A stretch of DNA of 64,000 nt from a virus. The stretch covers positions 1 through 64,000 of IMG/VR virus record IMGVR_UViG_3300013126_000023. One strand, given 5' to 3'. The notes under the pieces were generated by a model, which was not told where the DNA came from, did no database searches, and saw only the letters and a program-made list of their open reading frames with translations. Within the stretch, counting starts at the first letter, position 1, and each line of letters opens with the position of its first letter. The translations under genes were made by a program, and so were the position numbers. Shown here piece by piece: positions 1 to 61,731 of the stretch.

Positions 1-110
1 CCATTAGCAGTTGCACCTTGAGCTAATATAGTAACATTGGCGAAAGAATAACTAATTTCATTATTAGCTAATAGATTTTCAAATACACAATTATTTGCTG
101 CGTAAGTCAT
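1..110 (-). CDS. Kelch-like repeat virion protein, N-terminal fragment
   Basis: Partial gene running off the left edge of the window; only the first 36 codons are present. Its ATG (110-108) overlaps the stop of the preceding gene in an ATGA arrangement, as in the next three genes of the series. The N-terminus starts MTYAANNCVFEN and reaches an ANVTIL stretch that corresponds to SNVSIL/ANVNIL in the three complete paralogues, so it is probably a further copy of the same family. No repeat motif is reached before the window ends. The family call rests on N-terminal similarity and position only. Confidence 0.6.
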   Translation of the reverse strand, partial: MTYAANNCVFENLLANNEISYSFANVTILAQGATAN

Positions 111-1105
111 ACTTGTGTCCCAGAATTATTACCTCTAAGTGTAGTCAATGCACCTATACAAGTAGCTAGTCCTTCGGAAGCAAATGAAAATCTTTGCACG
201 CTTGTAGTATAATTGTATCCTCCGCTTGTATAACCATGTGTACTAGAACTTGAACCAGCAGAACTAGATAACCCCGAAGTCAGGCAACCAACGACACTTG
301 AAGGCGTATCACTTGCATAAGGAAATTTTTGTATACATGCTAAAGTGCTATTAGTTGGATAAAAATATCCTCCTGCTATATAACCATTTGTCGATGAATT
401 ATAAGGTGAGGCAGATTCTATACCTATATTCAAGGTAAAAATAGAGGTTGATACGCTACCATATGCAAAAGGAAATCTTTCCATACAATTAGAAGTAGGA
501 ATAGGACCACCAGAAACATACCCGTTAGTATAAGATGAATTGCCTATTTGCCATTTACGACTATTTTGTAAATTGCCCAAGCATGTTGAATTGCTATCAG
601 CGGCAAATGGAAATTTATCCACCCTAGCCACACTGGTATCTGGAGATAAACAACTTTGTCCTCCAGTATTATATCCATCTGTAAGCGAAGAAACACCAGA
701 AAATGTTCTTCTTGCCAAGGTAAGACAACCGACAGAATATGCGCTACTATCTGTCGTAAAAGAAAATTTATCAATAGTATCTCTCATTACGTTACTGCTA
801 TCAATACCGCCTGCAAAATATCCATTTTCCCTGGATTGATGAGCAGCTCCAGTATGTTTAGCAACTGTAGTGTTTCCTACACTTCTGGATACATACGTAG
901 ATACAAATGGGAATTTTTCTATACTAGATAAAATACCAGGTACGTTTCTACCTGCTATAGAATATCCAGCAATACTACCAATCGAGGGAGATGTGCTGGC
1001 AAAAACATTTGATGTTAAACTAATTCCAGATTCTAGGATAACCGAATTAACACAAGCGTTTCTGAATACGTCAACAACGAAATTAGAATTTATACTGTAA
1101 CTCAT
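107..1105 (-). CDS. Kelch-like repeat tail/adhesin protein (paralogue 1)
   Basis: A 332-residue protein of about six tandem units of roughly 45-50 residues. Each unit carries a KFPF or RFPF core, a Gly-Leu or Gly-Asn-Leu turn and an HGYxxGG or NGYxxGG end. Such units are known from virion proteins of T4-like marine phages and resemble kelch/beta-propeller blades. A role in the distal tail or host-surface binding is inferred. It lies in a chain of paralogues joined by ATGA overlaps, so translation is probably coupled. No signal peptide or catalytic motif is visible. About six blades would suit a closed propeller, but this is a structural guess. Confidence 0.7.
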   Translation of the reverse strand: MSYSINSNFVVDVFRNACVNSVILESGISLTSNVFASTSPSIGSIAGYSIAGRNVPGILSSIEKFPFVSTYVSRSVGNTTVAKHTGAAHQSRENGYFAGGIDSSNVMRDTIDKFSFTTDSSAYSVGCLTLARRTFSGVSSLTDGYNTGGQSCLSPDTSVARVDKFPFAADSNSTCLGNLQNSRKWQIGNSSYTNGYVSGGPIPTSNCMERFPFAYGSVSTSIFTLNIGIESASPYNSSTNGYIAGGYFYPTNSTLACIQKFPYASDTPSSVVGCLTSGLSSSAGSSSSTHGYTSGGYNYTTSVQRFSFASEGLATCIGALTTLRGNNSGTQV

Positions 1106-2136
1106 ACCTGATGGCCTCCCATCAAGGATCTAGTTTCTGTTAGCAATCCTATGCATGAAGCATTAGTATCACTACTAAAATTTATTTTATCTATGCATCT
1201 TAAATATGAAAAGGTAGGATAATTATAACCACCTACAGTATAGCCATAACCTACAGGTCCAGCTGAAACTCCTGCAGATGAATGTCTTCCGCAATTGTTA
1301 CTTAATGTTCCTACAGATGAGGCAGCACCTTCTGCAGAAAATGGGAACTTGTCTATGGTAGCTACCCAACTACCAGAAGTATATGGTGTAGAAGGTGTAG
1401 GGAATAATAAACCTCCACCCAAATATCCATGTGTTATTGATGACATACCAGCATTATATCCTCTAGCTTGATACAAACAACCAACGCAACCAACAGTACT
1501 TTCGGTAGCAAATGGAAATTTTTCTATATAATTGCAATTTTGTGCGTAATAATTCCCCGAACTATAACCAGCATACAATGATGAAATACCATTATATTGA
1601 GATTGATAAGTTAAATTACCTGGAGACGTAGCACTAACATCAGTTGAAAATGGAAATTTGTTTAAAATTGTAGAGGAAGGTTCATTAAATGATGCAAAAC
1701 CTTTTGTAGGTGATGCATAACCGGAAGAAACAGTTTTGCAGTGTGTTAGATCACCTACATCTATAGAATTAGTTCTTACAGAAAATGGAAATTTATCTAT
1801 AATGTTTGAATTTGTTGTGGGATTTATAATTCCCCCAAAGGTGTAACCATGCTGTGTTGATGATGTTCCACCTGCCTGTGATCTCGTAACTGATATCGCA
1901 GCTATACAGGCAGAACCCTCGTCTGTTGAAAAGGGAAATTTTTCTATATTATTTTTGAATGATACTGTTGGACCACCTTGTCCGCTAGATACAAACCCAG
2001 CAGTAGTTCCCCAATAAGGTGATGTTAAAATACTAACGTTAGAAGTTATAGCTATGCCTTTTTCTAAGATGCCGGTATTAAAACAAACATTTCTGCTTGT
2101 ATCAATAAATGGTATACCGCAAATAGAATATGTCAT
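1102..2136 (-). CDS. Kelch-like repeat tail/adhesin protein (paralogue 2)
   Basis: A 344-residue paralogue of its neighbours, with the same N-terminal plan (MTYSICGIPFIDTSRN, then EKGIAITSNVSILTSP) and repeated IEKFPFSTD / IDKFPFS units separated by Gly-rich HGYxxGG turns. The stop overlaps the next gene's start and the start overlaps the previous gene's stop (ATGA), indicating one mRNA with coupled translation. The N-terminal 45 residues are the most conserved part among the copies and may attach the protein to the virion, while the repeats vary. That division is inferred from comparison within the window. Exact binding target unknown. Confidence 0.7.
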   Translation of the reverse strand: MTYSICGIPFIDTSRNVCFNTGILEKGIAITSNVSILTSPYWGTTAGFVSSGQGGPTVSFKNNIEKFPFSTDEGSACIAAISVTRSQAGGTSSTQHGYTFGGIINPTTNSNIIDKFPFSVRTNSIDVGDLTHCKTVSSGYASPTKGFASFNEPSSTILNKFPFSTDVSATSPGNLTYQSQYNGISSLYAGYSSGNYYAQNCNYIEKFPFATESTVGCVGCLYQARGYNAGMSSITHGYLGGGLLFPTPSTPYTSGSWVATIDKFPFSAEGAASSVGTLSNNCGRHSSAGVSAGPVGYGYTVGGYNYPTFSYLRCIDKINFSSDTNASCIGLLTETRSLMGGHQV

Positions 2137-3164
2137 ACTTGTGTTCCAGTCATACCCGATCTACAGCAAGCTAGATCACCCACATTAGATTGAGAAGTAG
2201 GTGAAGCAAAGGGAAATTTTTCTACGGTTAATGCCGATCCAAAAATAATTCCCGGAGATCCTTCTCCACCTGCTGATAATCCTGCAGTGTTAGAAGATGA
2301 TGAAGCAAAATTTAATCTACCTGTTCCCAATCCCCCAACACAAGAGGCGGCAACTGAGGTTGAAAAAGGATATTTTTGAATATTAGTATAAAAAGTGTTT
2401 GGAGGAAATTTACCTCCTACCATATATCCATCAGTGCTTGATGAATGGCCACCAGAACCATAAGTACATATACCGGTTGTACCTATATTAGAAATACTAG
2501 TCTCAGAAGCAAATGGAAATCTTTCTATATAGTTAGCATAGCCGCCTGATGCAGAATTTTCACCCGACGCTACATAACCTGCATCCACTGAGGATGAAGA
2601 AGATGCTGCTGATCTACATGCACACAGATTGCCAATGTTAGTGGCATTGGTATCTGTTGAAAATGGAAATTTATCTATGCGTCTTTGTAGATTAGGATTA
2701 ACAGGTTGATTACCACCTGCAGCATAACCATGAGTTACTGAAGATATACCAGCAACTGCTGATACCGAACCATTTAAATCTCCCACATCAGTAGCATTTG
2801 CACAGGATGGAAATGGGAATTTGTCTATTACATTTGAAAAACTATTAGGAAGAACAAATCCTCCGGTATGATATCCATGCTGTTTAGAGGATACTCCTAT
2901 TCTGCTACCTGCTCTGGAAGCAGTTAAATTACCAGAAGATACTGCAGCACTAAACAATTGTGTTACAGGATATTTTTCTATAAAAGATGTACTAGTGGTC
3001 GGAGTATTACCCCCACTCACAAAAGCAGATGATTCTCCCCATAAAGGAGAGGTAAGTATGTTGACGTTAGCTCCAACACAAAGACCCTTCTCTGTGAATC
3101 CTGAATTAAAGCTACCGTTTTTACAAGTGTCTATTACACATACACTGCAAACACTAAAAGTCAT
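2133..3164 (-). CDS. Kelch-like repeat tail/adhesin protein (paralogue 3)
   Basis: A 343-residue member of the same tandem family. The N-terminal block (MTFSVCSVCVIDTCKN, then TEKGLCVGANVNILTSP) matches paralogue 2. It is followed by about six units with IDKFPF / IERFPF / IQKYPF cores and Ser-rich GYxxGG ends. It is first in the series in transcription order, directly after the S74-domain fibre gene, whose stop it abuts. Several extra cysteines occur near the N-terminus. Function inferred as a phage particle adhesin or fibre component; no enzyme motif is seen. Confidence 0.7.
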   Translation of the reverse strand: MTFSVCSVCVIDTCKNGSFNSGFTEKGLCVGANVNILTSPLWGESSAFVSGGNTPTTSTSFIEKYPVTQLFSAAVSSGNLTASRAGSRIGVSSKQHGYHTGGFVLPNSFSNVIDKFPFPSCANATDVGDLNGSVSAVAGISSVTHGYAAGGNQPVNPNLQRRIDKFPFSTDTNATNIGNLCACRSAASSSSSVDAGYVASGENSASGGYANYIERFPFASETSISNIGTTGICTYGSGGHSSSTDGYMVGGKFPPNTFYTNIQKYPFSTSVAASCVGGLGTGRLNFASSSSNTAGLSAGGEGSPGIIFGSALTVEKFPFASPTSQSNVGDLACCRSGMTGTQV

Positions 3165-54199: not shown

Positions 54200-55738
54200 A
54201 TGCGTGCAGTAAAAACTGCTTTGAGTTTATTCCTTGTTATGTTTCTAAGTACCGTTTTCGCTCAAAACACTAGTACTCAAAGTACAACCAACGGTGTAAC
54301 TACCAATACCATCAATCCACTTAACCAGGGCGGTTATGACTCTAAAAGTTTGGTGGACACAAATTCCACATCTAATAGTACAAGCTCGGTTACAACCAAC
54401 AACGTTTCTACTAGCACTAGCAATAATGTTAATACTAGTACTGTAAACAGCAATTCAACCAACACTAATAATAACGTTAATACAAGTACAAGTACTTCTA
54501 CCAACGTAAACACTAATAATAATGTTCAAAGTGGTACTGTGACCAATAACAATAATAACGTTATGAGTGGTACAGTAACATACAATAATAATAACGTAAA
54601 CACAGGTACCCAAACCTTTAACAATAATAATGTAAGTACTTCTACAGCTACCAATAATAACAATAATGTAAGTACTAGCACAAGTGCTTCTACCAATGTG
54701 AATACAAATAATAATATTAATACCGGTACTATGACGTATAACAATAATAATGCTTCGACTAGTACTAATGTGAATACAAATAATAACATTAATTCTGGTA
54801 CTCAAACATTCAACAACAACAATGCAAGTACCAGCACTAGTACCAATACTAATACCAATAATTCAACCAGCGTAAATACAAATAACAATATCAACACTGG
54901 TACTATGACTTATAATAACAACAATGCGTCAACAAGTACCAATACAAATGTGAACACTAACAATAATATTAATACTGGCACAATGACGTATAATAACAAC
55001 AATGCGTCAACTAGCAATAGTACAAGCACTAACTTAAATACAAATAATAATATCAATACTAATTCAAGTACCAGTATGAATCAAAATATGAATTACAATG
55101 TTAGTGTTACTGACAATAAAAATACTAATGTTAGCAATAGCACATCAAATAATACCAACATGAATATTCAAACTGGTGATATGACTAATAGAAATATTAA
55201 TACGACTACAGCAACAACTAATAATGTTAACGTAAATCAAAGTTCAAGTTATAGTAACAGCAATAGTAATAGTACACAAGTTGTTAACACAGATAACTTA
55301 AATAAAAATATTAATGAAACCACAATTACGCAACGTGTCATTCAGCCTCCTCCAACTGCTATTGCTCCTGCAATGATGTCTGGCGGCGGGAATGACTTGT
55401 GTTCAACGGGACAATCTGGTGCAGTACAGACTCAGATGTTTGGCATGGCATTAGGTAGCACACAAAGAGATTTAAATTGTGAACGCTTAAAATTATCCAA
55501 GACTCTTTTCGATATGGGTATGAAGGTTGCGGCAGTTGCTACCATGTGTCAAGATAGAAGAGTCTGGGAATCAATGATGGCTGCTGGCACTCCTTGCCCA
55601 TATGAAGGTAACATTGGAGACAAGGCAAGAGAACTTTGGGCAGCAAATCCACATAAGATTCCAAAATACGATTATGTGACAGCATCAGAAGTTGACAAGA
55701 AAGAAACTCCTAAATTTCATACTAGCAGCTTTAGATGA
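54200..55738 (+). CDS. Exported low-complexity Asn/Thr/Ser repeat protein
   Basis: A 512-residue protein with a Sec signal peptide (MRAVKTALSLFLVMFLSTVFAQ, likely cut after residue 21). Residues about 25-375 are almost only Asn, Thr, Ser and Val in NTGTMTYNNNNASTSTNVNTN-type units. A C-terminal domain of about 110 residues follows, with GNDLCSTG, LNCERLKLSKTLFDMGMK, ATMCQDRRVWESMMAAGTPCP: four cysteines, as expected for periplasmic disulphides. The C-terminal pattern is recognisable in exported proteins of marine phages. AAGGAAGAA ribosome site. Could act at the host envelope (adhesion, exclusion or lysis) or on the particle; function unknown. Confidence 0.65.
   Translation: MRAVKTALSLFLVMFLSTVFAQNTSTQSTTNGVTTNTINPLNQGGYDSKSLVDTNSTSNSTSSVTTNNVSTSTSNNVNTSTVNSNSTNTNNNVNTSTSTSTNVNTNNNVQSGTVTNNNNNVMSGTVTYNNNNVNTGTQTFNNNNVSTSTATNNNNNVSTSTSASTNVNTNNNINTGTMTYNNNNASTSTNVNTNNNINSGTQTFNNNNASTSTSTNTNTNNSTSVNTNNNINTGTMTYNNNNASTSTNTNVNTNNNINTGTMTYNNNNASTSNSTSTNLNTNNNINTNSSTSMNQNMNYNVSVTDNKNTNVSNSTSNNTNMNIQTGDMTNRNINTTTATTNNVNVNQSSSYSNSNSNSTQVVNTDNLNKNINETTITQRVIQPPPTAIAPAMMSGGGNDLCSTGQSGAVQTQMFGMALGSTQRDLNCERLKLSKTLFDMGMKVAAVATMCQDRRVWESMMAAGTPCPYEGNIGDKARELWAANPHKIPKYDYVTASEVDKKETPKFHTSSFR
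54430..55300 (+). repeat. Asn/Thr/Ser low-complexity coding repeat
   Basis: In-frame repeats of AAT/AAC and ACT/ACA/AGT codons, about 20-35 codons per unit, with recurring GGTACTATGACTTATAATA-like segments at 54720, 54900 and 54980. Codon third positions vary between copies, so the protein sequence rather than the DNA appears to be kept. Confidence 0.8.
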
Positions 55739-58188
55739 ACGAAGAATTTAATCATAAGCATTATAATTATAAATGGACAAAGGGCTTTTTGCTAGCCCTT
55801 TGTATTACTTTACTTTTGTTGTCGGGTGCAGTGCTGGCTCAAAATTCTCCCAATACACCAAGTGGATATAGTATAGATTCTACTACAGGAAATCTAATAC
55901 AAAATCCCACCATGACATCTGGTACTGGCTGGACAACATCTGGTATGACTGGTTCATATACACCTGACGGTTATATTTTTAGTTATTCATCTGGCACTAT
56001 AGAACAAAATGTAAATTTTAATGCAATAAATTTTGGTTATTTAACTAACAATGCCGTATATGCAACTGGTATAATGTATGGATTTAAGTATAGATTTCAG
56101 TGTGCAAATCAAATAGGCGCTACTTGTGAAACAGGTACACTACAGGATACATTGAATGCTACATTTACATACACTGCACCCAATGGAACCATAGAAACAA
56201 CAAGTTCATACGGACTTGGATTAAAAAATATTAATGATGGTAATCCTGCATATAATCCTGTATGGCAACAGTTAGCAGAAACATATACATTTACTGGCCC
56301 TAAGAATATGGCATCTGTAGGTTCAGCTAGATTAAGTATAACTGGTATGGATGCAGGGTTCTGGGCATGTAATCCTGACTGTTACGGTCCTCAGATTAAA
56401 GATGCATACATGAGATTAAACTATAGTGTTGATCCTTGCATTTTAAATCCTGCATTCAATTCTAACTGTCCTGGTTTTCAAAACGTATTGCAGGGATCTA
56501 AAAGTCCAACATTTTATTATAGCTATAACATTGCACAATCTTTACCACACATAGGTGGCGGTGTTGTACTTCATGGTTATGATTATGGGTTTAATTGGTA
56601 TAACTATGGTGCTTGTTATAACACTTTTCTTTTCTGGTGTACAGATTGGAGAACAGATGGCGGCGGCAATATCAACTTTAGAATAAGTGATAAGAATAAT
56701 ACTACTATGCTTCAGAATCAGTGGTATGTTGGCGGTAATAATTCTGGCGGTAGTTACAGCAATAGATTTTTATTTACAGAATCACGCAACAGTTTAGATA
56801 TGGGATCAGTACAATGGTGGGCAAGTGATGTATGGAATCACTTTGGTTGGGTAGGTTGGACTAGACCTATATGGACACCTGATCCTTGTTACACAAATGG
56901 ATTATACAGTCCAAACTGTAGTAACTTTAAAGATACATTGAATCAAGTATTAGCAGACGTTAAAGCACAACAAGAAAAAATTGCTGCTTTATCACCAAAT
57001 ATATCTAGTACAAGCTCAACACCAAGTGGTTCAATTACTGTTACGATATCTGATGCTACTACAACTAGCCCATCAGTAACAGTTAATACTACAATGGATC
57101 AGAATAGTTTTGTTTCAACAAATAGAAACATTGCTATTTCAGCCAATCAAAATCCCCAAGACCTAGCTGCTTCTGTCATAGGTCGTAATGCTGCTAATAA
57201 TGCTAGAGTAAATGCCATAGCACAAAGAGCAATGGCAGATGCAAATAATATAGCGAGTGCATCTACTAGAGAAGCAGAACAAATTGCTGATAATCTAACT
57301 AATTCAAGTATCGTATCAAGTATGGATGCTTTAAAAGAAACAGATCAGGCATCTAGTACAATAACTATAGGCAGAGTATCACAAACTAATATTACTAGCA
57401 CTGTACAACATATTGCACAAGCAGCACCACAAGTAACACCGCAACAAAAACAAGAACAAGTGCAACAAGCAACTTCTGTGACAGCCATAACTATAGAATC
57501 GGCGGCACAATTGCTTATGCCTAATGCAGCATTTAGATCTATGGAAATCTCAGTATCTATTCCAAGTTTACCCCCTGTGAATAATACTGCAAGACTACAG
57601 GAAGAAAAACAAGAATTAATTTTTAAAGAACAAGAGCAAACACAAGTTACTAGTATTCAACCAATTCCAAGTCCAGACCAAAATGTTTTTGTATCTCCCA
57701 TCAATGTAACAAGTATACCATTACAAGCTTCTCAATCAAATATGGAAGTATTATCGCAACCATCAAGTCAAACGCTTGATACAAATATTCAACAAATAGT
57801 AGTACAAGAACCTAGAAGAGAAATAGTAACAGAAGTAGAACAACCTCAGCAGGCTAGAAATTTTACTACTGATAAAACTAATCCTATTAATGACATTATA
57901 GAGAATAGAACACAAGTAGTAGAGCAACGAACCGAGCAACCTTTATTATCATCAGTTAATCGTAATGCACAGAATAACGAAGTAGCTGGTGGTGTTGACA
58001 TTAATAATTTAGCAGTGCTTCCAGTAGGATTTAGTGCCTACAATATTGCATTAAAGGATGTGGCATTTTATGCGCCAAAGGAAATTTATCGTAATCAAAA
58101 GACCGTAGACAATGTTAGAGCATTAAGATCGTTGGCAAGTGATAGACTTCACCAAGAGATGGTGGATCAACAATACTTACCGAGGTAA
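55735..58188 (+). CDS. Large exported protein with beta-sandwich and Gln-rich coiled region
   Basis: 817 residues. A hydrophobic N-terminal segment (KWTKGFLLALCITLLLLSGAVLAQ) acts as signal peptide or anchor. Residues 35-400 form beta-rich lectin-like domains (LIQNPTMTSGTGWTTSGMTGSYTPDGYIF resembles carbohydrate-binding modules) with two DPC-x8-NC-PGF/SNF cysteine units. From about 410 on, the chain is helical and Gln/Ala-rich (QQEKIAALS, AIAQRAMADANNIASA, PQQKQEQVQQATS). The DPCxxNxxYxxxCxxF unit is widespread in marine phage proteins. Coupled to the upstream gene by an ATGA overlap. Envelope or particle role; no enzymatic motif. Confidence 0.6.
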   Translation: MNEEFNHKHYNYKWTKGFLLALCITLLLLSGAVLAQNSPNTPSGYSIDSTTGNLIQNPTMTSGTGWTTSGMTGSYTPDGYIFSYSSGTIEQNVNFNAINFGYLTNNAVYATGIMYGFKYRFQCANQIGATCETGTLQDTLNATFTYTAPNGTIETTSSYGLGLKNINDGNPAYNPVWQQLAETYTFTGPKNMASVGSARLSITGMDAGFWACNPDCYGPQIKDAYMRLNYSVDPCILNPAFNSNCPGFQNVLQGSKSPTFYYSYNIAQSLPHIGGGVVLHGYDYGFNWYNYGACYNTFLFWCTDWRTDGGGNINFRISDKNNTTMLQNQWYVGGNNSGGSYSNRFLFTESRNSLDMGSVQWWASDVWNHFGWVGWTRPIWTPDPCYTNGLYSPNCSNFKDTLNQVLADVKAQQEKIAALSPNISSTSSTPSGSITVTISDATTTSPSVTVNTTMDQNSFVSTNRNIAISANQNPQDLAASVIGRNAANNARVNAIAQRAMADANNIASASTREAEQIADNLTNSSIVSSMDALKETDQASSTITIGRVSQTNITSTVQHIAQAAPQVTPQQKQEQVQQATSVTAITIESAAQLLMPNAAFRSMEISVSIPSLPPVNNTARLQEEKQELIFKEQEQTQVTSIQPIPSPDQNVFVSPINVTSIPLQASQSNMEVLSQPSSQTLDTNIQQIVVQEPRREIVTEVEQPQQARNFTTDKTNPINDIIENRTQVVEQRTEQPLLSSVNRNAQNNEVAGGVDINNLAVLPVGFSAYNIALKDVAFYAPKEIYRNQKTVDNVRALRSLASDRLHQEMVDQQYLPR

Positions 58189-58190
58189 AA

Positions 58191-58844
58191 ATGTCCGAAG
58201 AAAAAGTAGATGTAAATAAAAAAATTGACGATGCCGAAGCGGCAATGAAAAAGTATGCTAGTAAAGATACTGTAATCAGCATCGGAGGTTATGAGTTTAC
58301 ACCCGCAAAGTTAATGGTAGCAGCTACACTAGTTAGTTCTGCATTAGGTGGATTATACGGTGTGTTTGAAGTATATAAAGATTATATGGGTATGAAGAAA
58401 AAAATTGCTGAGTATGTAGCACCAGATTTTTCAGAATTTGATAAGCGTCTAGCTGTAATAGAAGAAAATGCCAGCAAAACCGCTAAGGCAGTTCAAGAAG
58501 GATCTGATAAAACTGCAGAATATACTCGCGATATTAAAAATGATCTAAAGAACGATATTCGTCGTCTAGAGAAAACAGTTGAGGATGTAGAGCGCGGTAA
58601 TAAGACTCAGCAACGTGAAATAGATCGTACAGTAGCAGAAGTAAAGACAGATGTTCGCAATATTCAAAAGCAAGCGGACGCTTCGATTAATGCTGCAACC
58701 AAAGAAATTAATCGTATGTCAGCAGAAAATTCAAAAGCAATTGCTGCTAACAATAAAGAGGTTGATGCTAAGTTAAAAGCATTAGACAAAAAGATCAATG
58801 AAGATTTAAAGAAAGCACTCGATAACCCATTGGCTAATAGGTGA
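58191..58844 (+). CDS. Membrane-anchored coiled-coil protein
   Basis: A 217-residue protein with one likely membrane segment (LMVAATLVSSALGGLYGVFEVY, residues about 39-60) after a short cytoplasmic-type start (MSEEKVDVNKKIDDAEAAMKKYAS). A very long charged coiled coil follows (EENASKTAKAVQEGSDKTAEYTRDIKNDLKNDIRRLEKTVEDVERG...). Heptad Ile/Leu spacing supports an extended dimer or trimer. GAGGTAAAA ribosome site two bases after the previous stop. Similar proteins lie in exported-protein clusters of T4-like marine phages. Spanin-like bridging of the envelope is possible but not shown. Confidence 0.6.
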   Translation: MSEEKVDVNKKIDDAEAAMKKYASKDTVISIGGYEFTPAKLMVAATLVSSALGGLYGVFEVYKDYMGMKKKIAEYVAPDFSEFDKRLAVIEENASKTAKAVQEGSDKTAEYTRDIKNDLKNDIRRLEKTVEDVERGNKTQQREIDRTVAEVKTDVRNIQKQADASINAATKEINRMSAENSKAIAANNKEVDAKLKALDKKINEDLKKALDNPLANR

Positions 58845-58847
58845 TAA

Positions 58848-59021
58848 ATGGAAACACTAGCAGATGCTTTAGGTAAGTTATGGTTCTTAGGAGCAGGCGT
58901 TGTTGCAATAGCAGCATACGCTGTCACATTGAAAACTAGATTAGATTATTTGGAAAAGAACTATGACAAACAAATTACTGCACTATGGGATGCAGTAAAC
59001 AAATTAAATAGAGACAAATAA
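58848..59021 (+). CDS. Small single-pass membrane protein with helical tail
   Basis: A 57-residue protein, METLADALGKLWFLGAGVVAIAAYAVTLKTRLDYLEKN..., too short to appear in a simple ORF scan at 60 residues. One hydrophobic segment (residues 11-27) is followed by an amphipathic coiled-coil tail (LKTRLDYLEKNYDKQITALWDAVNKL). AGGTGATAA precedes the ATG. It ends one base before the stop of the minus-strand cyclase gene, so the two transcripts converge with no spacer. The design resembles the membrane-anchored coiled coil upstream. Confidence 0.65.
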   Translation: METLADALGKLWFLGAGVVAIAAYAVTLKTRLDYLEKNYDKQITALWDAVNKLNRDK

Positions 59022-60260
59022 TTATAATTTCATTCGATTGTCGTCTATAAATTTAATTTGATCCACTAATGCATCTGCATCTGTTTTATAGTTATTGAAG
59101 TCTGCTTTACTTAGAGTCTTGTTAAGATCTTCTAACATCTTTTGTGCTTGGTGGTTGTGTTCTGCTCTAGCTGCATACAACCATCTAAAAGCATTTTTCT
59201 TATCATTTAACTTTAAATAAAATTCACCTAATTTAAGCATAGCGGAAACATTACGTTTCATTGCTACTTCTTTAAGATCATCTAATATAGCATTCATTTC
59301 TGATTGACTACTTGTAGGATCATCAAATACCATAACTGCATATCTTTGCTGGGCCTTTTCGTCAATCTTACCAGCAGTCTTGACAAATTGAAAAGCTGAA
59401 GATTTATACCCAAATTTTTCTAATAGATCTGCTATTTGTAATAGTCTATCACTATCAAGTTTATAACAAAACTCTTTGAATATAGCATCAGCATAAGGTT
59501 TGAATTCATTGGGTATCAAGTCTTTCATGCCCATACTTACTAGTTCATCCAATGCTGCTTTGTCCTGTTTAGTAATTCTCCACATCAATATTCTTACTGC
59601 AGGTCCTAACTTATCATCTCGTTTAAAATTTTGAGCATCCGCCAATGATCTGTTTCTTGCAGCTGCATCATTGACAATAGCTGCTACTAGTTCTTTATGT
59701 GATTTAGTAGGAGCAGTTTGTGAGGATGTTTTAGGTGCCTTTGCAAGGTGCGGATTTGGTTCCGCTCCATCTATAACCACACTCCAAATTTCCATTGGAG
59801 AAACATTCTTAAATTCTTGTATGCCTCTACTAACAAATTTTAAATCTTTCAATTTACCAGCAACTAATTTATACACAGTGTCAGTCATAGTTACGCCACA
59901 ATAGTCAGCAAGACTTTCTGTTCTAGCTGCTAAATTAACAGCATCTCCCATAAGATTACTGCCATATATCCATACTTCACCCATATGCATTCCTATACGC
60001 CAACGCATACCATTTTTTAATTTTTTTATTCTAGCTTGCATTTCTATGGCAAATTTAACAGCATCAACAGCACTGGAAAATTCAACCAATATGCTATCGC
60101 CCCCAGTATTAAACAAACGTCCTTTACTAGAATCTATTAATGGATCGATAACGGCGCGGCAGGCATCTAGTTTTAGTAGGGTGCCTTCTTCGTCCTGTTG
60201 CATTGATGCGCTATAACCAATAACGTCACTGCAAATAATAGTAGCTAATTTAGTTTCCAT
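59022..60260 (-). CDS. Class III nucleotide cyclase with helical-repeat C-terminus
   Basis: A 412-residue protein. Residues 1-165 form a class III adenylate/guanylate cyclase catalytic domain: ICSDVIGYS (Asp12, metal), GRLFNTGGDSILVEF (Asp55, metal), GMHMGEV, and LMGDAVNLAARTESLA (Asp106, Asn109 and Arg113 at the transition-state and base-recognition positions). The adenine-recognising Lys of classic enzymes is Asn51 here, as in some rhizobial-type cyclases. After a Pro/Thr linker, residues 190-412 are TPR/Sel1-like helices (LGEFYLKLNDKKNAFRWLYAARAEHN). No membrane segment. A late promoter ends six bases before the ATG, and no ribosome site is visible. Product could be cAMP, cGMP or a pyrimidine cyclic nucleotide. 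Confidence 0.85.
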   Translation of the reverse strand: METKLATIICSDVIGYSASMQQDEEGTLLKLDACRAVIDPLIDSSKGRLFNTGGDSILVEFSSAVDAVKFAIEMQARIKKLKNGMRWRIGMHMGEVWIYGSNLMGDAVNLAARTESLADYCGVTMTDTVYKLVAGKLKDLKFVSRGIQEFKNVSPMEIWSVVIDGAEPNPHLAKAPKTSSQTAPTKSHKELVAAIVNDAAARNRSLADAQNFKRDDKLGPAVRILMWRITKQDKAALDELVSMGMKDLIPNEFKPYADAIFKEFCYKLDSDRLLQIADLLEKFGYKSSAFQFVKTAGKIDEKAQQRYAVMVFDDPTSSQSEMNAILDDLKEVAMKRNVSAMLKLGEFYLKLNDKKNAFRWLYAARAEHNHQAQKMLEDLNKTLSKADFNNYKTDADALVDQIKFIDDNRMKL

Positions 60261-60274
60261 AAATAATATTTATA
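60259..60274. promoter_or_regulatory. Back-to-back late promoters (bidirectional)
   Basis: Sixteen-base inverted element: TATAAATA on the minus strand (60274-60267) facing the cyclase, and CATAAATA on the plus strand (60259-60266) facing the membrane gene cluster. The plus element begins in the cyclase start codon. Divergent use gives matched late expression of both. Confidence 0.6.
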
Positions 60275-60295
60275 ATAATAACTAGGGAGTTAAAA

Positions 60296-60829
60296 ATGAG
60301 TGAAGTTAAACAAGAAGTTAAACCTTTATCAAGAAGTGAGCGTGAAGCCAAAATAAAAGATAAGGCTGGGTTTATAATTGTATTTTTAGCAGCAGTTTTA
60401 GCAATAAACACTATGCTTGGCGGCAGTAATAGTAGCAAGATACAGAACAATACTATTCAAGCAAATAATATGTGGGCTTGGTACCAAGCCAAAAATGTAC
60501 GAGGCGTTCTGTATGAGATTAGTGCCGCTGAAGCCAACAAACCAGAAAATGCTGAAAAATTTCTTGCCGAAGCTAAACGTATGAGTGATGACAAGAAAGA
60601 AATCATGGAGAAGGCAAAAGTCTTAGAAGCAGAAAGAGATGCTGCTAAATTAAAGTCTCCTTGGTTTACCTGGGGCGGTAGTGTTTTACAAATAGCAATC
60701 GTTCTTTTAACTGCTAGTATTCTTGCAGTAAGTATGCCAATGTTTTACATTAGCACAATAGTTGGAGCCGTAGGTTCTTTTCTAGTTAGCCAAGCAATAT
60801 GGATGTGGATCCCATGGTTAAGTGTTTAA
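60296..60829 (+). CDS. Two-TM-hairpin membrane protein (DUF4337-like)
   Basis: A 177-residue protein. A membrane segment (GFIIVFLAAVLAINTMLGG, residues about 24-42) precedes NNTIQANNMWAWYQAKNVRGVLYEISAAEAN, a pattern typical of the DUF4337 family (QxxAxxxWxxYQAKxIKxxLYE). A charged coiled region (EAKRMSDDKKEIMEKAKVLEAERDAAK) follows, then one or two C-terminal membrane segments. AGGGAG ribosome site. Family function is unknown; members are common in bacteria. It is transcribed away from the cyclase from the shared late promoter. Confidence 0.7.
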   Translation: MSEVKQEVKPLSRSEREAKIKDKAGFIIVFLAAVLAINTMLGGSNSSKIQNNTIQANNMWAWYQAKNVRGVLYEISAAEANKPENAEKFLAEAKRMSDDKKEIMEKAKVLEAERDAAKLKSPWFTWGGSVLQIAIVLLTASILAVSMPMFYISTIVGAVGSFLVSQAIWMWIPWLSV

Positions 60830-61002
60830 TAGGATTAAGTTTTTTACTTATTGCTGGGTGTGGAGATTTTTACAGATACCCGTGTCAAAATCCAGATAAT
60901 TGGGAAAAAGATATTTGTAAAAAACCCTATTGCGAAATAAATCGTTCATGTCCAGAACATATCTTTAAGGAAGATTTAAAAGATAAGGAATGTAAAAAAT
61001 GA
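60814..61002 (+). CDS. Small lipoprotein
   Basis: A 62-residue protein from MVKCLIGLSFLLIAGCGDFYRYPCQ. LLIAGC is a lipobox, so the mature chain would begin at the lipidated Cys in the outer or inner membrane. Five more cysteines follow (PCQNP, ICKKPYCEINRSCPEH, ECKK), suggesting disulphides. ATG 60814 is favoured over one 15 bases upstream because it gives a normal-length lipoprotein signal. It overlaps the preceding gene by 16 bases. Small phage lipoproteins can block superinfection or act as outer spanins; both are options here. Confidence 0.65.
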   Translation: MVKCLIGLSFLLIAGCGDFYRYPCQNPDNWEKDICKKPYCEINRSCPEHIFKEDLKDKECKK

Positions 61003-61391
61003 AGGAAATGTTTGATAAACTTATAGGACAGGAAGGAGATAAACCTTCAGCGTCCGATAAATCCGAAAAACGTAGTAAACCAGGTGAAAGATATACAGAA
61101 AATGAGCTCATGGTTCGACTTAAGTTTATTATTGGTTGCTGCTTGGCTTTCACTCTTATTGGAATTGTATTTACCGTTCTTTATTCTATTATGTTTGTTA
61201 CCCAACCTCTTAATGCAATCAGTCCGATCGATCAGAAATTTTTTGAATTGATTATACCTGTTGCCACATTTCTTTGTGGTACATTATCGGGTATTATGTT
61301 AGCAGGTACAGGGAAGGAAGCGGCGATGGCTGGTGCAGCAGCTCAAAGGCAGGCTGACAAAGAAAAGAAAGATGAAACTAAATCGTCTTGA
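60999..61391 (+). CDS. Two-TM membrane protein, conserved in T4-like marine phages
   Basis: A 130-residue protein. A charged N-terminus (MKEMFDKLIGQEGDKPSASDKSEKRSKPGERYTENELMVRLK) precedes one membrane segment (FIIGCCLAFTLIGIVFTVLYSIMFV) and a second one (FELIIPVATFLCGTLSGIMLAG), with SPIDQKFFELI between them. The IDQKFFELIxPxxTFLxGTxSGxML signature is familiar from small cyanophage membrane proteins. The tail is Ala/Lys-rich. Holin-like topology is possible, but holin function is not shown. ATGA overlap with the lipoprotein gene. Confidence 0.65.
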   Translation: MKEMFDKLIGQEGDKPSASDKSEKRSKPGERYTENELMVRLKFIIGCCLAFTLIGIVFTVLYSIMFVTQPLNAISPIDQKFFELIIPVATFLCGTLSGIMLAGTGKEAAMAGAAAQRQADKEKKDETKSS

Positions 61392-61509
61392 TTGGTTGTT
61401 AGATGTATGGGTCGCGTATAGTCTAATATGGATATACGCACCATATATTATGATGCCGAAAGAAGTGGAAGCGGGGGTTGGAATCGCACCAACGTCCTCT
61501 GGATTATGA
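61372..61509 (+). CDS. Possible 45-residue membrane peptide, overlapping tRNA antisense
   Basis: Open frame MKLNRLDWLLDVWVAYSLIWIYAPYIMMPKEVEAG... starting inside the previous gene. The first 30 residues are aromatic and membrane-like, which looks protein-coding, but the last 15 codons run antisense through the tRNA-Met gene and no ribosome site is obvious. Real only if translation is coupled to the upstream gene. Confidence 0.3.
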   Translation: MKLNRLDWLLDVWVAYSLIWIYAPYIMMPKEVEAGVGIAPTSSGL

Positions 61510-61540
61510 GTCCAGCGTTCTACTTCTGAACTACCCCGCA
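61466..61540 (-). tRNA. tRNA with CAT anticodon (Met type)
   Basis: Cloverleaf read on the minus strand: acceptor TGCGGGG/CCCCGCT, D arm GTTC/GAAC, anticodon stem CTGGA/TCCAG with loop CTCATAA, T arm GTTGG/CCAAC, encoded TCCA end. The first acceptor pair is a T-T mismatch, which recalls initiator tRNAs, but the anticodon stem lacks the initiator GGG/CCC pairs. Elongator or initiator status is therefore undecided. Confidence 0.85.
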
Positions 61541-61550
61541 TTTGATCTAT

Positions 61551-61558
61551 TATTTATA
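61551..61558 (-). promoter_or_regulatory. T4-type late promoter between tRNA genes
   Basis: Exact TATAAATA on the minus strand in the 18-base space between two tRNA genes, 10 bases before the first nucleotide of the CAT tRNA at 61540. Could boost that tRNA late. Spacing fits, but chance occurrence in an AT-rich spacer is possible. Confidence 0.45.
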
Positions 61559-61638
<80 letters not shown>

Positions 61639-61640
61639 TC

Positions 61641-61731
61641 TGGTGCCCAAGGCCGGAATCGAACCGGCACGCCCCTTTCGGAAAGCGAGAGATTTTAAGT
61701 CTCTTGTGTCTACCTGTTTCACCACTCGGGC
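61641..61731 (-). tRNA. tRNA-Leu (TAA)
   Basis: Minus-strand cloverleaf with acceptor GCCCGAG/CTTGGGC, anticodon loop CTTAAAA (anticodon TAA) and the long variable arm (CGCTTTCCGAAAGGGGCG region) of class II tRNAs, plus encoded CCA. TTA is a frequent Leu codon in this AT-rich genome, so the tRNA suits the phage. First of the three tRNAs after the promoter. Confidence 0.95.

Follow-up and report, generated by a model that had tools for sequence, protein, structure and literature searches.

A soluble class III nucleotidyl cyclase of a T4-like phage is encoded beside small single-pass coiled-coil membrane proteins

We analyzed 64,000 nucleotides of viral DNA, here called the window (positions 1 to 64,000 of IMG/VR record IMGVR_UViG_3300013126_000023), with attention to a gene for a soluble class III nucleotidyl cyclase of 412 residues (59022..60260, minus strand) and to the membrane proteins encoded around it. 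The source record (G000; 70,861 bp) belongs to a T4-like myophage, as shown by its genes for UvsX, a DnaB-type helicase, a gp43-type polymerase and a RegA-type repressor, the polymerase being ~51% identical to cyanophage homologues. The near-invariant partner of this cyclase is a small one-transmembrane coiled-coil protein, either tm57 or the pair tmccB-tmccA. Because proteins of this kind are also found among lysis genes and in the phage curli module, the locus probably represents a version of a signaling module of the envelope or of lysis that is already known, if unexplained. Stated more fully, we hold with about even confidence that a phage module in which small one-transmembrane coiled-coil proteins accompany a class III cyclase is present in the window in a curli-less form, with a late role in the envelope or in lysis.

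Relatives of the cyclase were taken from viral contigs, and the close family comprises 48 loci with the window included (47 fetched). Either tm57 or tmccA adjoins the cyclase gene in 44 of the 48. In the remaining four, the contig breaks off on the side in question: immediately at the cyclase in L015, L046 and L047, and 437 bp upstream of it in L039, where a holin gene (holin160) and a GH24 lysozyme gene are nonetheless visible. The commonest constant neighbor is tm57, which adjoins the cyclase in 34 of the 47 fetched loci; in the window this 57-residue, one-transmembrane coiled-coil protein is encoded at 58848..59021 on the plus strand and converges on the cyclase. The layout itself varies. 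The genes may converge and abut, the arrangement seen in the window, or run in the same direction with 8-14 bp between them and the partner upstream; the cyclase may be enclosed within a holin/lysozyme cassette, or tmccA-tmccB may converge with it, often following a small two-transmembrane gene, tm71. In a quickly built maximum-likelihood cyclase tree, many forks of which have limited support, partner type changed at least four times, layout at least seven times and adjacency to a DUF4337 gene at least nine times. In L014 and L040, tmccB-tmccA lies between the cyclase and the coiled-coil gene cc217, which is exactly the slot of tm57 in the window. We considered tm57 as a divergent tmccA and rejected it, the two having no detectable homology (hhalign probability 9%). 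An earlier interpretation made from the letters alone, here the sequence-only reading, had tied the cyclase to a DUF4337-like protein, a lipoprotein and a further two-transmembrane protein. Persistent linkage to membrane genes stands; those three genes are facultative, and the constant partner lies on the other side of the cyclase, within the membrane coiled-coil cassette (cc217 and tm57) that the same reading had correctly described as convergent with it.

The assignment of the cyclase rests on a PF00211 match (E=2e-8; 34.4 bits against a curated cut-off of 21.9), on its fold, on invariant D12, D55, N109 and R113 and on the ratio of nonsynonymous to synonymous substitution rates (dN/dS). A catalytic domain at about residues 1-170 is followed by a disordered linker (about 173-184) and by Sel1/TPR-like helical repeats (about 188-409). 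The AlphaFold model, computed from a deep alignment that joined the window protein to its viral and cellular homologues, has a mean predicted local distance difference test (pLDDT) score of 87.6 and supersedes an earlier model from 13 sequences that was poor in the catalytic domain. Searched with Foldseek, the catalytic half returned class III cyclases, among them Rv1900c (1ybu) and 3mr7, each at a TM-score of 0.88. The C-terminal half had been called TPR/Sel1-like from the start, and this call is upheld by the secondary structure of the AlphaFold model and by low-significance Sel1/TPR matches in a viral library. Both halves are under strong purifying selection, with dN/dS of about 0.04 (range about 0.03-0.06); wider pairs are near synonymous saturation, and pairs with a proportion of synonymous differences (pS) of 0.3-0.4 agree. 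The closest cellular relatives are alphaproteobacterial class III cyclases of up to about 45% identity, which came from a wider genome scan after a first scan gave none. Across 80 loci of these relatives, the C-terminal half of the phage protein found no match, and tblastn of the window cyclase against 50,697 phage records likewise found none.

The metal-binding D12 and D55 and the transition-state N109 and R113 are kept in all aligned viral homologues that cover those positions. These residues were recognized in the sequence-only reading, as was the replacement of Lys at the first base-contact position (N51); the base-recognition Asp that it also listed is in fact N102. Alignment with Ma1120 and 3mr7 makes N102 the equivalent of Ma1120 D157 (numbering derived from primers in PMC4215837) and places D106 at a separate conserved position. 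The window cyclase thus has N51/N102 where a canonical adenylyl cyclase has its Lys/Asp pair. Asn occupies both base positions in 72 of 78 viral rows, which include some contigs fetched twice; five of the remainder lack one column and one has Gly at 51. The pairs most often seen in 80 cellular relatives are K/D (39), N/D (19) and G/N (9), with a single N/N, and 13 of the 80 have Asn at the base-Asp position. Since D157 mutants of Ma1120 retain substantial adenylyl cyclase activity (PMC4215837), ATP is still a plausible substrate, and cyclic AMP (cAMP) is the likeliest of the possible products. Motif conservation and the low dN/dS both back the original impression that the enzyme is likely active.

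The partner proteins lead beyond cyclase loci. A search anchored on tm57 gave 79 loci, 27 with a cyclase and 52 without, and in 50 of the cyclase-free loci tm57 is preceded by holin160, which is weakly related to a PHROG holin family, and followed by a GH24 lysozyme gene; in each of the other two, the sequence ends on the side of the missing gene. Apart from two exceptions, the intervals in these holin160-tm57-GH24 cassettes measure 3-12 bp and 35-50 bp. In L026, L027 and L033 the cyclase itself is part of such a cassette, flanked by holin160 and GH24. Holin-type and endolysin genes are adjacent in these three loci and in L039, and they occur with GH19 0.75-2.7 kb away in L005, L021, L037, L038 and L149; in ten of the cyclase records, a GH19 endolysin gene is found at a distance of about 0.75-7 kb. 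DUF4337 has similar company. Its start lies 3-33 bp after a GH19 endolysin gene in nine loci (L175, L194, L207, L209-L213 and L223), and it precedes holin160 and GH24 in eight (L230, L232, L235-L238, L240 and L242), so that DUF4337 looks like a lysis-associated phage membrane protein family. Elsewhere it is also found between tmccB and tmccA. The open literature searched held no informative paper on it. Consistent loss of the linked membrane genes from cyclase-bearing relatives is what the sequence-only reading named as evidence against itself, and the loss seen is partial: of 32 virus records with the cyclase, 12 have DUF4337, and in the other 20 none was found. Its absence from six long cyclase records (122, 160, 400, 109, 150 and 183 kb) argues that it is not an obligate partner. 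Among 32 records that carry DUF4337 or tm57 but not the linked cyclase, PF00211 was found in just 3, all of which have tmcc genes and CHASE2 cyclases.

That phage cyclases are linked to curli genes is already published: pelagiphages carry a type VIII secretion system (T8SS, curli) module with FecR and an adenylate cyclase (PMC9599517, PMC9004378). Proposed roles of the module are aggregation and superinfection exclusion (PMC9599517), and the curli pore of phage Melnitz has been suggested as a lysis regulator in a paper that does not mention a cyclase (PMC9004378). Both tmccA and tmccB belong to phrog_18771, and among the phage isolates of the collection they occur only in the Methylophilales phage Melnitz strains and in Pelagibacter phage HTVC008M, where the order is tmccB-tmccA, then CsgF-CsgG-curlin-FecR, with a CHASE2 cyclase at the end. 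A search anchored on tmccA that disregarded cyclases yielded 80 loci in 60 sequence clusters. A class III cyclase is present, at a median distance of 985 bp, in 68 of them, which are mostly phage curli modules of the published kind; this contrasts with the 3 of 32 DUF4337 or tm57 records above. Of the 12 loci lacking a cyclase, 10 break off within about 4.3 kb in one direction or both. These 80 loci also hold tmccB (77), FecR (50), CsgG (46) and DUF4337 (8), with DUF3307, the lipoprotein and tm130 occasionally; in L341, the lipoprotein gene and tm130 accompany tmccB-tmccA and a CHASE2 cyclase. The curli module and the window-type module therefore draw on overlapping gene pools, with DUF3307, DUF4337, the lipoprotein, tm130 and the tmcc genes found in both. 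The HTVC008M cyclase is of the CHASE2 membrane type and about 21% identical to the window cyclase where aligned; given this distance, the CHASE2 type of curli cyclases and the lack of a tblastn match, we rejected orthology of the window cyclase with the pelagiphage curli cyclase.

A further observation concerns an annotation in the literature, in which one or two short "histidine kinase" genes precede CsgF (PMC9599517). The genes directly before CsgF in Melnitz (L322, 12119-12757) and HTVC008M (L323, 6900-7462) are tmccB/tmccA, of about 92-115 residues. These proteins are too short for a kinase domain, and Pfam found none in close relatives. We infer that the published "histidine kinase" genes are tmccB/tmccA.

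Evidence on the timing of cyclase expression comes from the region around the starts of the cyclase and DUF4337 genes, for which the sequence-only reading had proposed a bidirectional late promoter. The proposal is supported in part, as two late-promoter-like boxes are present: TATAAATA at 60267..60274 on the minus strand, 6 bp before the cyclase ATG, and CATAAATA at 60258..60265 on the plus strand, 30 bp before the DUF4337 ATG and followed by AGGGAG. Over the whole window TATAAATA is not enriched (11 found, 14.8 expected). It lies within 50 bp upstream of 5 of 59 open reading frames (ORFs) against 0.6 expected from shuffles, a signal that we take as only modest because the opposite strand also gives 3 of 59. 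A box of this type stands 4-6 bp before the cyclase ATG in the window, L004, L005 and L024, and with one mismatch in L007, L009, L014 and L017; it is thus shared by several cyclase relatives, not all. Other late-like boxes of the window lie 18-30 bp ahead of the ATG, and with only 4-6 bp to spare the cyclase transcript is predicted to be leaderless or nearly so. We rejected a promoter common with the DUF4337 cluster as the main general link: it fits the window and its close relatives, and DUF4337 is absent or elsewhere in many records.

In the module that we propose, the cyclase, made late, would produce a cyclic nucleotide, and its Sel1/TPR helical repeats would dock on the membrane coiled coil. 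The nucleotide might act by way of a host receptor or of the partner protein, and the outcome would be the tuning of a late envelope event, most likely the timing of lysis or the function of an apparatus that is secreted or sits in the outer membrane. A function in lysis fits the suggestion made for the Melnitz curli pore (PMC9004378). More tentatively, and with rather little confidence, phage cyclic-nucleotide signaling could be a late envelope or lysis clock for which cyclases were recruited at least twice from unrelated subtypes, with or without a curli pore. Just as tentatively, the cyclase of such a clock may work with small one-transmembrane coiled-coil proteins, and with tm57 at least one of these belongs to lysis cassettes in its own right.

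Several observations weigh against the proposed module. Most of the records are fragments, and gene neighborhood does not prove joint action. The common slot of tm57 and tmccA rests on position, and a single phage lineage may account for all 52 cyclase-free tm57 loci, since they form eight clusters at 80% identity and one at 70%. The window record, a fragment, yielded no endolysin to a GH19 query, and none was recognized among the window ORFs scanned. It also lacks FecR (PF04773), and CsgG and CsgF were found in none of the 32 cyclase-bearing records, most of them fragments and the window record among them. One secreted-looking neighbor, fib512, was tried as a curlin and rejected, its BLAST similarity being of low complexity and the Pfam Curlin_rpt profile giving no match. 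Late synthesis of the cyclase is suggested by a promoter-like motif of modest significance. Finally, the cyclic nucleotide receptor domain PF00027 was found in none of the 32 cyclase-bearing records; with no protein carrying a cyclic nucleotide-binding domain (CNBD) among them, the signal would have to be received by a host protein of the CRP type or passed on by direct protein contact.

The need for a host receptor is also what an account based on host catabolite control would predict, in which phage cAMP drives or distorts CRP-family regulation late in infection and the membrane neighbors are incidental. An intact catalytic site under purifying selection and nearest cellular relatives among alphaproteobacterial class III cyclases agree with it. 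We consider it unlikely, as it accounts neither for the adjacency of tm57 or tmccB-tmccA, which survived at least seven changes of layout, nor for the same linkage in a non-orthologous CHASE2 cyclase. The tmccB-tmccA-cyclase core shared with curli-bearing phages would suit control of surface fibers, with the cyclase regulating secretion or assembly of the extracellular repeat proteins fib512 and fib817, as proposed for the curli module (PMC9599517). Both are encoded in the cluster with signal-like N termini: fib512 (54200..55738, plus strand) has a signal-peptide-like start and Asn/Thr repeats and occupies roughly the position of curlins in the T8SS module, and fib817 (55735..58188, plus strand) looks secreted, with a hydrophobic N terminus and no family match. 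The missing CsgG, CsgF and FecR of the window record and the lack of a curlin profile match in fib512 speak against this account, and fib genes are not near the cyclase in L007, L009, L010, L013, L017, L024 and L026; we consider it as unlikely as the catabolite account.

Two further explanations take the cyclase out of envelope control or deny it catalysis. The sequence-only reading had raised the possibility that a phage cyclase jams a defense effector, and a competing or decoy cyclic nucleotide acting on a Pycsar-like system would draw some plausibility from the class III fold of PycC and from nearby membrane proteins that recall PycTM effectors (PMC11224242). The evidence is unfavorable. 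The PycC profile reaches the window cyclase with E=0.003 (14.7 bits) over 50 residues, which does not place it in that family, and the base residues of PycC differ (PMC11224242); the receptor side is also missing, PycTIR carrying a CNBD (PMC11224242) and the 32 records having no PF00027. With PADLOC, PF00027 and the specificity residues all unsupportive, and with a lysis- or curli-type gene setting unlike a typical early anti-defense locus, we reject a Pycsar or decoy function as highly improbable. A pseudo-enzyme that makes no cyclic nucleotide and serves as a structural partner of the transmembrane coiled-coil proteins would explain the linkage to membrane proteins rather than receptors, as well as Asn at both base contacts, a pair found in 1 of 80 cellular relatives. 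It is quite improbable nonetheless, because the metal and transition-state residues are all invariant, Rv1900c likewise has Asn at the Lys position and Ma1120 tolerates loss of D157 with substantial activity (PMC4215837).

The remaining genes of the cluster are as follows. Upstream of tm57, and of tmccB-tmccA in L014 and L040, lies cc217 (58191..58844, plus strand), a membrane-anchored long coiled coil whose matches to known families are weak and confined to the coiled coil. PADLOC gave weak matches of cc217 to the coiled coil of ZorA (MotA/ExbB/TolQ), probably a generic coiled-coil similarity. On the far side of the cyclase, three plus-strand genes bear out the membrane protein, lipoprotein and further membrane protein described at the outset: the optional neighbor DUF4337 (60296..60829; PF14235, E=2e-30), a small lipoprotein that overlaps the DUF4337 end (60799..61002; lipobox LIAGC and a conserved YRYPCQNPDNW-type motif) and tm130 (60999..61391; phrog_25359). 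Absent from the window is the two-transmembrane gene tm71 (71-72 residues), which in L007, L009, L010, L013, L017, L024, L011 and L040 follows the cyclase in the same orientation and in most cases overlaps or abuts the cyclase stop codon. More distant window-type cyclases (about 36-37% overall identity) follow a DUF3307 membrane gene in L152, L153, L155 and L156; a metallophosphoesterase gene is nearby in L152, L153 and L156, and L156 has a glycosyltransferase gene as well as tmccA and tmccB. Directly past the membrane cluster, at 61466-61731, two CAT-anticodon tRNA genes and a tRNA-Leu(TAA) stand side by side, with a sigma-70-like promoter (12/12 match) ahead of them at 61768-61740 on the minus strand. 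At the other end of the window (107-3164), three successive ORFs of similar length form a tandem paralogue set beside a tail-fiber gene, all of them phrog_19111 of unknown function.

In phage biology, cyclic nucleotides are viewed mostly as host defense signals. In many phages, the present comparison places class III cyclases of two unrelated types next to small membrane coiled-coil proteins that are the same or equivalent, some of which have relatives in lysis cassettes. The open-access papers searched described neither the soluble Sel1/TPR cyclase family of phages nor its transmembrane coiled-coil partner, neither the replacement of cyclase and partner types nor the link of the partner to lysis cassettes. 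Phage curli, phage cyclases and DUF4337, each an oddity so far, merge into one question, namely whether a second messenger or a cyclase-membrane complex times a late envelope event, and the gene arrangements give independent genomic support to the suggestion that phage curli pores regulate lysis (PMC9004378).

Compared with known systems, the catalytic domain is closest in sequence to the alphaproteobacterial cyclases of the 3mr7 group, to which it is up to about 45% identical with the same motif layout; these lack a match to the C-terminal half, and the Asn/Asn pair that is rare in them is near-fixed in the phages. Rv1900c (1ybt, 1ybu) is the best structural match (catalytic-domain TM-score up to 0.90) and shares Asn at the Lys position, but differs in its Asp at the second base position, in a His aligned with the transition-state Asn and in its partner domain. 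PycC of Pycsar has the class III fold in common and differs in its specificity residues (PMC11224242). The holin/endolysin cassettes, holin160-tm57-GH24 and GH19-DUF4337, share tm57 and DUF4337 with cyclase loci, yet most of these cassettes have no cyclase and most cyclase loci have no holin160 or GH24. The phage curli module is like the window in clustering a class III cyclase with transmembrane coiled-coil genes, the gene in the window being tm57 instead of tmccB-tmccA. The window record differs in having no CsgG, CsgF or FecR, and its cyclase is soluble with Sel1/TPR repeats, whereas the curli cyclase is a CHASE2 membrane protein.

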